Shown piece after piece: positions 20,072 to 60,246 of a DNA stretch of 64,000 nt. The notes under the pieces are model-generated. The model was given only the letters and a program-made list of their open reading frames with translations. It did no database searches and had not been told where the DNA came from. Position 1 is the stretch's first letter. Each line of letters starts with the position of its first letter. Origin of the DNA: Desulforamulus ferrireducens (GTDB lineage Bacteria > Bacillota > Desulfotomaculia > Desulfotomaculales > Desulfotomaculaceae). Location of the stretch: the NCBI RefSeq assembly GCF_002005145.1, contig NZ_CP019698.1, positions 1,922,001 through 1,986,000 on the forward strand, written 5' to 3'. The position numbers and the translations under genes were made by a program.

Positions 20072-20190
20072 AACGTTGTTATAAGTTACACGCTGGCAGC
20101 CTTAAGCCATAGGCCTTTTTAGAACCTTCCCCAGTGTGGGAATTGGGCATAAAAACAACTCCCCAAGTCCGCTTCGCGCCAGCCCCCTCT

Positions 20191-20296
20191 GGGGAATATA
20201 CTACCAGTACAGGTTTAATCTATCTAAGCCGACGGCTGATGGCAGATGGCCGATGGCCAAAAAAGGAGTGTCGCAAATTTTGCGCACTCCTTTTTG
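20191..20296 (+). repeat. Composite intergenic repeat, copy 1 (conserved box, heptamer tract, hairpin)
   Basis: Box GGGGAATATACTACCAGTAC, then AGGTTTAATC and CTAAGCC (20191-20230), is followed by a heptanucleotide tract GCCGACG, GCTGATG, GCAGATG, GCCGATG (about 20228-20258) and the hairpin 20259-20296. The same parts recur near 49.9 kb and 60.1 kb in inverted orientation. The element lies between convergent acuA and guaB. A further shorter GGCC-rich patch (AAGCCATAGGCC) lies at about 20104-20115. Confidence 0.7.
20259..20296. terminator. Bidirectional terminator-like hairpin of repeat copy 1
   Basis: AAAAAGGAGTGTCGCAA pairs with TTGCGCACTCCTTTTT with one bulged base. It probably ends guaB transcripts on the minus strand. 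Confidence 0.75.
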
Positions 20297-49490: not shown

Positions 49491-49877
49491 ATGTATCAGG
49501 ATCAGGTAACTGATAAAAACTTGTGTTTGGCCCTCATTAATCAGCTCAAATGGAGCGCCACCTGTCTCACCGGTAAAATCTTGGAATGCGCTGATGACCA
49601 GTTGAGACAGGAATATATGCAAATCCTTAACCGTACCTTCGCTGAACAAAAACGAGTCTTCGACTTTGCCCATCAGCAGGGTTGGTACCAACCCATGATG
49701 GCAGAACAGCAAATGATTGGTCAGGTACAAAGCGATACACAAAAACTAATGATGGAGCAGCAGCATAGCATGGGCAACATGCACCAAATAGCTCAACAGC
49801 AGAGTATACAAAGCCAGGGTATGTATAACTATCAAAATCAAAACCATTATGGTGGACAACCATATTACAGCCGGTAA
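49491..49877 (+). CDS. Spore coat protein, CotF-like
   Basis: A 128-residue protein. The first 80 residues form a four-helix, ferritin-like CotF domain (LCLALINQLKWSATCLTGKILEC, RQEYMQILNRTFAEQKRVFDFA). The C-terminal tail is rich in Q, M, N, H and Y, as in self-assembling coat proteins. The ATG at 49491 follows AGGAGG. Two-gene operon with the preceding small coat gene; ends at repeat copy 2. Confidence 0.87.
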   Translation: MYQDQVTDKNLCLALINQLKWSATCLTGKILECADDQLRQEYMQILNRTFAEQKRVFDFAHQQGWYQPMMAEQQMIGQVQSDTQKLMMEQQHSMGNMHQIAQQQSIQSQGMYNYQNQNHYGGQPYYSR

Positions 49878-49888
49878 GAAGTAATTCA

Positions 49889-49921
49889 GGGAGTGGCGCA
49901 TATTTGCGACACTCCCTTTTT
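49889..49921. terminator. Terminator hairpin of repeat copy 2
   Basis: GGGAGTGGCGCA (49889-49900) pairs with TGCGACACTCCC (49905-49916) with one mismatch, then TTTTT. Placed right after the coat gene. Confidence 0.8.
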
Positions 49922-50007
49922 AGGGCCATTGGCTTTTGGCCATTAGCCTTTAGTCGTTAGCCATTGGCTTAGTTGGATAAAACCTGGTACTGGTAGCATA
50001 TATCCCC
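49889..50007 (-). repeat. Composite intergenic repeat, copy 2
   Basis: On the minus strand the conserved box (GGGGATATATGCTACCAGTA then CCAGGTTTTATCCAACTAAGCC, 50007-49966) precedes seven heptamer units (49970-49923) and the GGAGTGTCGC-type hairpin, the same order as copy 1. It is part of a gene-free stretch of 566 bases (49878-50443); the middle (50008-50248) is GC- and AT-patchy with short inverted repeats and no gene. Confidence 0.7.
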
Positions 50008-50248
50008 GGAGAGAGGATTTAAAGAACCCCCTCGCCGAGGAGAGTAATGCAAAATATCTCTACTAAGGCATACTAGAAATTGAAGTGGTGCTTAATTTAA
50101 TTTTATCAAATTACCCCTTTTGTAATGCACTCCTGAGGGGGCAGGTTCGGGGTCGGAAGTCAAGCAAGGCGCGCAGCGCCTGGGGGAGATGCTTTTTATG
50201 CCCACTCCCTCTGACGGTTACGCCACCACCTCAGGAAGGGTTTAAAAA

Positions 50249-50393
50249 GGCCTATGGCTTATGGCTTAAGGCCCAAGGCCAATCATTTAAAGGCCAATGG
50301 CCAAAGGCTAAAGGCCAAAAGCCTGTGTCTTAAGGGCTACGGCCAATCTTTAAAGCCGATGGCCGATGGCTGATGGCCGATGGCCGACGGCCA
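50249..50393. repeat. Long GGCCRAT heptanucleotide tract
   Basis: About twenty units of a degenerate heptamer run almost without gap: GGCCTAT, GGCTTAT, GGCTTAA, GGCCCAA, GGCCAAT, further units with a few six- or eight-base slips, ending GGCCGAT, GGCTGAT, GGCCGAT, GGCCGAC, GGCCAAT. A period of seven excludes a coding repeat. A downstream patch to 50443 is unremarkable. Confidence 0.75.
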
Positions 50394-50443
50394 ATTCGCG
50401 CCATCCCTTAATTGCACGGCTTTTAGTTAATTTCGCAGGCTAA

Positions 50444-50650
50444 TTATGTGAGCAATCCTGGATAGACCCCCTGGTTAAGAAAATGAGCCGGGTCACTGCT
50501 ATTGATGCGCACCACTCTCCTTTGCCCATTCTCTGCCTTTTCCAGCAAAACAGGAATGCCGTCCACTTCCCCGGTTTCATAACTGGGATAACTATTGTCA
50601 TCAAAGCCTTGTAATACTTGTTCCGGTGCCAGTGGTGTCCAAAGAATCAT
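50444..50650 (-). CDS. ylzJ: YlzJ-like protein
   Basis: A 68-residue YlzJ-family protein of unknown function, found after tepA in spore-formers. It begins [15 protein letters not shown], as homologues do, so the ATG at 50650 is used (AGAGGTG upstream) rather than the GTG at 50662. The ATG overlaps the tepA stop in ATGA. Confidence 0.88.
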
Positions 50651-59939: not shown

Positions 59940-60019
59940 TTTTACCCACCTCCCTGCTACATTTTATGAGCAAGGTGGACAAATATGCCATCAGCTTGCT
60001 TGGGAAGGCAAGGTTTTTT

Positions 60020-60246
60020 GGCTATCGGCCTTTGGTCTTAAGCCGTTGGATTATTAAATTGGCCTTCGGCCGTCGGCTTAGTTGGATTAAACCTGGCAGT
60101 GGTAGGCACTTCCCTCTGCAGTGGGGAATATAAAAAGGAGTGTTGCAACCAGCAACACTCCTTCTAAGAAGTTCAATAAGCTTAAGGCTAAAGGCCAATC
60201 ATATAAAGCCAATGGCCAAAAGCTAATGGCTAACGGCCAATAGCCT
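60020..60246 (-). repeat. Composite intergenic repeat, copy 3
   Basis: A heptamer tract (60020-60078), the conserved box in minus orientation (GGCTTAGTTGGATTAAACCTGG and CAGTGGTAGG, 60075-60107), a GGAGTGTTGC hairpin (60132-60165) and a second heptamer tract (60183-60246, units such as AGGCCAA, GGCCAAA, GGCTAAC). The hairpin lies on the other side of the box compared with copies 1 and 2. It fills the 332-base gap 59940-60271. Confidence 0.7.
60132..60165. terminator. Hairpin of repeat copy 3
   Basis: GGAGTGTTGC (60137-60146) pairs exactly with GCAACACTCC (60152-60161), with A/T flanks on both sides; it could end the M16 protease transcript. Confidence 0.65.

Follow-up and report, generated by a model that had tools for sequence, protein, structure and literature searches.

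Dispersed nested palindromic repeats with inward-facing heptamer arms lie behind gene ends in Desulforamulus ferrireducens

Introduction

Degenerate heptamers lying between genes are characteristic of the STRR of heterocystous cyanobacteria, a trait that these repeats share with the family described here; to our knowledge, convergent palindromic arms with an enclosed core are not known for cyanobacterial STRR. Pneumococcal BOX elements and bacterial MITEs are modular, non-autonomous, hairpin-forming and intergenic, as is the present family. The latter has inverted arms, and neither a partner transposase nor a target duplication was found for it at the loci read.

The closest known systems are the convergent GGGAATC heptamers of Xanthomonas and Nostoc. 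For Xanthomonas, 186 and 183 (GGGANTN)n arrays have been reported, mostly of 4 units and 89-93% intergenic, together with 70 and 75 convergent plus/minus pairs of GGGAATC-type heptamers (PMC4692102). The same source mentions heptanucleotides of Calothrix, gives GGGGA(C/T)T as the Nostoc repeat, whose role is not known, and recounts that seven was recognised in 2007 as a repeat length in excess among bacteria, the role of such heptamers being still open in 2015 (PMC4692102). In Geobacter metallireducens, four tandem GGGACCG heptamers occur at 49 places (PMC2700814). The arrays analysed here resemble those of Xanthomonas and Nostoc in their period of 7, their mostly intergenic position and their convergent pairing (62 of 62 and 26 of 26 pairs in this work), and the conserved positions of the latter, 1-4 and 6, match the N at position 5 and the T at position 6 of our RGCYNTY unit (PMC4692102). 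They differ in that the Xanthomonas/Nostoc unit is G-rich and quadruplex-forming whereas RGCYNTY has by inspection no G-tract, and in that no common box or core is described for the former in the parts of that source drawn on here (PMC4692102).

Palindromic intergenic repeats present in many copies and in inverted pairs are also typical of the REP/BIME/REPIN sequences associated with RAYT (PMC2817692); unlike these, the present family showed no GT(A/G)G-type head, its arms are period-7 arrays and no copy lies within the 1.5 kb read on each side of the two Y1 genes of the source genome. The passages drawn on from a survey of REP sequences (PMC12306157) hold nothing on this family. The initial annotation of the locus had named no described element of this composite form in spore-forming Clostridia, and the open-access literature that we searched contained none; six literal RGCYNTY strings occurred in no paper of it, nor did we find there, in a corpus that leaves subscription journals mostly uncovered, a description of heptamer-arm hairpins as one class in several unrelated bacterial groups.

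Results

Architecture of the copies in the window

The window, the whole 64,000-nucleotide stretch analysed (G000:C1:1922001-1986000, G000 being the source genome), belongs to a single-contig genome of 3.24 Mb. Its largest copy of the element, at 49889-50393, occupies the gap 49878-50443 between two convergent genes, a CotF-domain gene on the left (49491-49877, + strand) and a YlzJ-like gene on the right (50444-50650, - strand), the latter followed by a ClpP-family gene. This copy consists of nested palindromes, a terminator-type hairpin being followed by inverted heptamer arms around a palindromic core:

49889 to 49921, + strand: terminator-type hairpin GGGAGTGGCGC..GCGACACTCCC with a T-run, 3' of the cotF-like gene
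49924 to 49968, + strand: left heptamer arm in the RGCYNTY orientation, 5 exact units
49969 to 49996, + strand: box TTAGTTGGATAAAACCTGGTACTGGTAG, backed by an 18-mer genome search and by alignment A1 of 39 other copies
49997 to 50040, + strand: left part of the GC-rich core, placed by position relative to other copies
50041 to 50133, no strand assigned: small palindrome inside the core, 93 bp, with ends AGAGTAATGCAAAA and TTTTGTAATGCACTCC
50134 to 50245, + strand: right part of the core, with CTGGGGGAG..., CTCCCTCTGACGG...CCACCTC and GGGTTTAAAAA
50246 to 50392, - strand: right heptamer arm, oriented as RANRGCY, with 12 units exact and 18 near-exact
50393 to 50419, no strand assigned: right-end motif, a worn copy (consensus ~CGCATCATCACCTAATTGCACAAC)
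20098 to 20295, - strand: second window copy, in the convergent guaB/GNAT gap, with its box on the minus strand and a hairpin at the right end (20265 to 20295)
60017 to 60246, + strand: third window copy, with a GGAGTGTTGC hairpin inside

The two heptamer tracts turned out to be the inverted arms of one large palindrome: the left-arm stretch 49931-49965 is 83% complementary to the right-arm stretch 50289-50323. Tandem Repeats Finder returned period 7 at 50249-50272, 50289-50323 and 50355-50392. Folded as one strand, 49923-50393 reached -187.1 kcal/mol, compared with -156.0 (sd 6.1) in 100 dinucleotide shuffles, with z scores of -5.1 as RNA and -4.8 as DNA (100 dinucleotide shuffles).

As first annotated, three gaps of the window have the box in common (at about 20201-20228 in reverse, and at 49969-49996 and 60078-60105 forward), along with stretches of heptamers and a hairpin of the GGAGTG(T/G)CGC type, which in the third gap is the GGAGTGTTGC one. 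Some details needed adjustment. On the strand used by the initial annotation the box of the 49889-50393 copy reads AGGTTTTATCC, so that the form noted there, AGGTTTAATCC, was one base off; the heptamer tracts proved real, but RGCYNTY for the left one and RANRGCY for the right one describe them better than GGCCRAT; and the "about twenty units" ascribed to the right tract (about 50246-50392) came to 12 exact units, or 18 at ≤1 mismatch, slightly fewer than stated. Five tracts of at least 2.6 exact units were present in the window, all within the 49.9-kb and 60-kb gaps, and none in any of 200 first-order Markov simulations of it; the tract of the 20-kb copy is too worn for this pattern. A comparison of the window with Rfam, group II introns included, gave no match at gathering score.

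A nested palindrome with ends AGAGCACTGCAAAA and TTTTGCAGTGCTCT (≤3 mismatches per end) and a length of 93-150 bp was observed in the core of 6 of the 56 copies examined; besides the one at 50041-50133 of the window, it was seen at loci L003, L006, L015 and L033.

Copies across the source genome

The family is not confined to the window. BLAST with the element returned at least 128 matching pieces in the source genome (from the best 40 of 162 candidates), and the whole-genome search with an 18-base box at ≤3 mismatches gave 66 matches against 3 for the reversed pattern. We then considered 56 box-like places, defined by the box with ≤6 mismatches within the fetched loci and having no control of their own. 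Right-arm heptamers lay within 800 bases in 50 of the 56, and a GTGTCGC-type hairpin (≤2 mismatches per arm) upstream of the box in 39. The arrangement of the neighbouring genes, as given by a crude ORF caller, could be read for 55 copies, one place having no called left gene: 29 gaps were convergent, 23 tandem, 3 '--' and none divergent, and in 52 of the 55 the left neighbour, in the direction of the box, runs into the element. The early remark that copies sit mostly at 3' ends thus holds for those examined. Dozens of copies of one unit, made of heptamer arm, box, GC-rich palindromic core and inverted heptamer arm, are therefore found 3' of genes, in most cases with a repeated terminator hairpin nearby. 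The box is accounted for neither by an Rfam family at gathering score (window) nor by a transposase gene beside the copies read, and no transposase gene with the element ends was seen among them.

Position behind gene ends close to a terminator, together with strong folding, would fit an element selected for its effect on the upstream gene, whether in ending its transcription or in stabilising its mRNA. Other observations make such a function very improbable. The arms matched no better within than between copies of the source genome (means of 44.0 and 46.4, 46 of 56 copies usable, permutation p = 0.97), so that selection for pairing is unsupported; the same outcome is expected if whole copies spread and then drifted. 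In addition, the neighbouring T-run hairpin already looks sufficient as a terminator, and, as described below, the element is missing at both orthologous sites compared, while in a relative, G003, arm mismatches show no clear strand preference (71 G.U against 53 A.C) and heptamer hairpins occupy 16S-tRNA and 23S-5S spacers, where termination would be harmful. The consensus of the core, built from 48 of the 56 copies (8 were dropped for length, including the 49.9-kb and 60-kb copies of the window) with a mean pairwise identity of 70%, folds as a long hairpin at -87.8 kcal/mol, a value obtained without shuffle control. In alignment A1, which comprises 39 of these 48 copies, 5 of the 8 predicted pairs had changed at least once on both sides, for a total energy of only -2.95, and the core hairpin thus has little covariation support.

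Modules and orthologous sites

The hairpin GTGTCGC-AACTACGG-GCGACAC occurs in 28 exact copies in G000, 5 in G002 and 3 in G006, and in none of 7 other relatives. Thirteen hairpin loci had been picked as lacking a known element. Seven of them contained the hairpin alone (L239, L244-L248 and L251) and four had core or arms (L241, L243, L249 and L250); L242 had a short heptamer stretch, and L240 carried the hairpin, both arms and the right-end motif without a core. Conversely, L112 holds a plain heptamer hairpin that has neither a core nor the GTGTCGC hairpin. Among the 56 box-like places, 8 had the hairpin on the right and none on the left, and 4 of those 8 had the right-end motif on the left. 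The existence of a core-less copy and of cores in either orientation relative to the terminator hairpin indicates that the element is modular.

In two relatives a different palindrome, GTAGGGGCG...CGCCCCTAC, was seen between the right-end motif and the hairpin, at L150 in G006 and at another site, L257, in G002. The frame from right-end motif to hairpin that it fills there houses the heptamer element in the source genome, and such sites would accordingly be nests able to take different palindromes.

Relatives were examined at two of the window's three sites, one downstream of ylzJ (9 genomes) and one downstream of guaB (8 genomes). Neither RGCYNTY tracts (2.4 exact units) nor the core (E ≤ 1e-3) appeared downstream of ylzJ in any of the 9 or downstream of guaB in any of the 8. 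The same cotF neighbour is present in 7 of the 9 (not in G004 and G008), and the same GNAT neighbour in 7 of the 8 (not in G007); G009 gave no match for guaB. The ylzJ/cotF gap of G006 and G002 contains the hairpin, with a short heptamer-like stretch as well in G002, and the guaB gap of G002 and G006 contains a short GCC-rich stretch, so neither compared site is entirely clean. Because the flanks cannot be aligned across species, no target-site duplication is readable. Of the composite initially proposed (box, period-seven tracts and hairpin), the dispersed intergenic family was borne out, but the hairpin is not an obligatory part: as it occurs alone and at an orthologous site of relatives without the element, it is rather a neighbour or target. 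We regard it as a repeated terminator-type sequence, probably a host or target rather than a mobile part.

BLAST of the window core and 48 other cores against 18 loci of these comparisons gave nothing at E ≤ 1e-3, and the exact core pattern had no match in a species-level genome collection that may omit the source genome. In 5 of 59 other relatives the element was matched at E ≤ 1e-6, in or just beside heptamers (best 10 candidates or fewer per genome). Among the genomes searched, box and core were found only in the source genome. Since arms and core are absent at both compared orthologous sites, the composite appears to have spread within the source lineage.

Y1 transposase genes

The family could be of the REP/BIME kind and driven by a RAYT (Y1) transposase of the source genome, which has two Y1 genes, one of them RAYT-like (P0001, L032:967-1869, - strand). 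The flanks of P0001, GGGGTCAGGC..., resemble the GGGGTC foot of the heptamer hairpins of G003 and G009, and homologues of this one RAYT clade (E ≤ 1e-10) are present in 14 of 15 heptamer-rich against 9 of 13 heptamer-poor relatives, a weak lean. Yet no element lies in the 1.5 kb on each side of either Y1 gene. Homologues are also found in G004, G005, G033 and G043, all without heptamers above control, are missing from the heptamer-rich G007, and, of 13 heptamer-rich genomes in other phyla, are present in only 4 and absent in 9. RAYT as a common driver is therefore unsupported overall, the lean being limited to relatives, and we consider this origin quite improbable. The P0001 gene is flanked by inverted GGGGTCAGGCTTGCATAAGTGCATAA.

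Heptamer arms in relatives

The heptamers are not special to the source genome or to Clostridia. The pattern of three RGCYNTY units plus RGC occurred 391 times in G000, 163 in G001, 53 in G002, 99 in G003, 18 in G006, 20 in G007 and 189 in G009; G004 and G008 had none, and the 6 matches of G005 equal the 6 of its control. RGCYNTY tracts were present in 23 of 199 relatives (24 of 200 with the source genome), some genomes having only one to three. Desulforamulus putei DSM 12395 (G217) showed 85 forward and 78 reverse matches, the same counts as in G001, a relative of the same genus as the source genome. In evenly spaced samples of 20 stretches of 20 kb each, G000 yielded 29 tracts (reversed control 1), 23 outside ORFs and 6 in small called ORFs, and G003 yielded 22 (reversed control 0), all outside ORFs.

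Wherever two neighbouring tracts of opposite orientation lay within 250 bp, RGCYNTY came first (62 of 62 distinct pairs, many of whose loci were chosen for matches). These pairs came from G000 (42, not independent because they are largely copies of one element), G003 (11), G001 (4), G009 (4) and G002 (1). Facing arms were likewise seen in all 26 pairs among the matches listed for G001 (11), G009 (2), the acidobacterial G204 (8) and G220 (5), the G001 and G009 pairs overlapping between the two counts.

In G003, 6 of the 11 pairs are 6-25 bp apart and form plain long hairpins, several of them situated, by eye, between the stop codon of one gene and the ribosome site of the next. Others lie in 16S-tRNA and 23S-5S spacers, whose rRNA and tRNA Rfam confirmed. 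Arms of 27 G003 elements scored 41.0 within against 33.7 between elements (p = 0.006), a difference that we do not count as support because the choice of centre had been optimised for the within score. The strand preference hinted at by their mismatches is not convincing. At loci L189-L208 of G003, hairpin arms made of a 34-bp tandem unit, GGGTATTCCTTTGGGGTC-CTGTTGTTAGACTAAT, were seen, some of them in the 23S-5S spacer; some of the heptamer hairpins have this unit as an extra. At 11509-11721 of L128 in G000 and nearby, a GGCC heptamer stretch and TCGAAYN-type arrays were observed within and close to an rRNA operon, the 23S and 5S of which were confirmed.

Heptamer hairpins outside the phylum

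A hairpin pattern of two facing arms of about 2.5 units with a gap of 3-33, run without reversed control on the species-level collection, matched at least 119 stretches; by our own estimate, chance matches should be well below one. The 80 matches listed were mostly from Bacteroidota (52), the others belonging to Acidobacteriota, Planctomycetota, Gemmatimonadota, Myxococcales, Aggregatilineales (which we take to be Chloroflexota), Elusimicrobia, Poribacteria, Levybacteria, Proteobacteria and D. putei, about eleven phylum-level groups altogether. Of 24 matched stretches read, 22 fall outside called ORFs; L330 resembles an ordinary microsatellite. In 22 genomes chosen for a hairpin match the tandem pattern occurred 2-229 times each, with 0-5 matches of the reversed control in 20 of them and 49 and 20 in the proteobacterial G216 and G221; Proteobacteria had either such high controls or only 2 matches. 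The genomes with a clean control cover eight of the phylum-level groups, all but Proteobacteria, Planctomycetota and Myxococcales.

Motif-free autocorrelation of non-coding DNA gave period 7 as the dominant basic period among those compared (5 to 13; 14 is a harmonic), block-shuffled sequence giving 0-1. Period-7 arrays numbered 24 in G000, against at most 1 for any other basic period, and 29 in G003, against at most 4. The loci of other phyla, which are neighbourhoods of selected matches, contained 254 against at most 22 with the selected seeds included; with seeds masked, there remained 134 against 0-21 for periods 5, 6 and 8-12, and 27 of these 134 fit RGCYNTY. The arrays were non-coding in 24 of 27 cases in G000, 29 of 30 in G003 and 254 of 328 in the other-phyla loci.

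Facing pairs were also formed by other heptamer words, among them GGTTATT, CGTTTTC, AGTGATT and TCGAACT. Of 94 non-RGCYNTY arrays, 32 had an inverted partner within 160 bp and 12 a direct one, against 4 in the other-locus control, and T exceeded A in the 5' arm in 24 of the 32 (the reverse in 7, a tie in 1, arms of one hairpin being counted separately). The 26 seed-masked RGCYNTY-like arrays showed no mean excess of inverted over direct partners (20.7 and 21.8); at threshold 30 they gave 6 inverted, 2 direct and 3 control. Profile comparison of neighbouring period-7 arrays was mixed (in G000, 5 direct, 4 inverted and 5 ties of 14), partly because successive tracts within a single arm are scored as direct neighbours. 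Self-pairing of RGCY, with a 4-base stem and a 3-base loop, was considered as the cause of period 7 and discarded, as it misses many non-palindromic heptamer words.

The predominance of period 7 over every other basic period in non-coding DNA, the variety of heptamer words and their excess of inverted partners are what would be expected of repeats born locally, slippage making the arrays in place and fold-back or template-switch copying making the inverted arm, with no movement involved. In-place slippage cannot, however, yield dozens of copies with the same box, core and heptamer order, and the single polarity of the pairs is not expected from symmetric copying. Slippage may thus explain the heptamer class but not the composite, and we judge this purely local reading unlikely.

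Discussion

Dispersal, modular nesting, position at gene ends and facing arms, taken together with arms that are unmatched within copies and with the lack of a link to Y1 genes, favour a passive palindromic element copied in trans. We consider it probable that the family is a dispersed, non-autonomous, nested palindromic repeat that has spread in this passive manner. The unit would have multiplied in a REP- or MITE-like fashion, through an enzyme acting in trans on the palindrome in its folded, probably single-stranded DNA form, and may be tolerated because its insertion falls downstream of terminators.

The heptamer arms, for their part, may be members of a much broader class of hairpins built from convergent heptamer arrays, which accumulate between bacterial genes and are possibly made by slippage and fold-back (template-switch) synthesis, with a shared mobiliser as the alternative source of the arms. 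Put in its broadest form, RGCYNTY hairpins would be part of a domain-wide, unrecognised class of facing period-seven degenerate arrays, with the NTY side towards the centre, produced in many phyla in the same way, through either a mobiliser or a replication error that they share, and the window element would be such a hairpin that has acquired a core and is now a dispersing composite; we advance this proposal only tentatively.

Such a wider class raises the interest of the element found in the window. One degenerate code and one polarity in unrelated phyla would pose testable questions: why seven, why inward-facing, and is there a common enzyme? For annotation, heptamer hairpins explain some of the spurious small ORFs as well as a share of the intergenic DNA. 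The genome of D. ferrireducens would be a good place to catch the process, since a heptamer hairpin is here a multi-copy composite that is missing from relatives.
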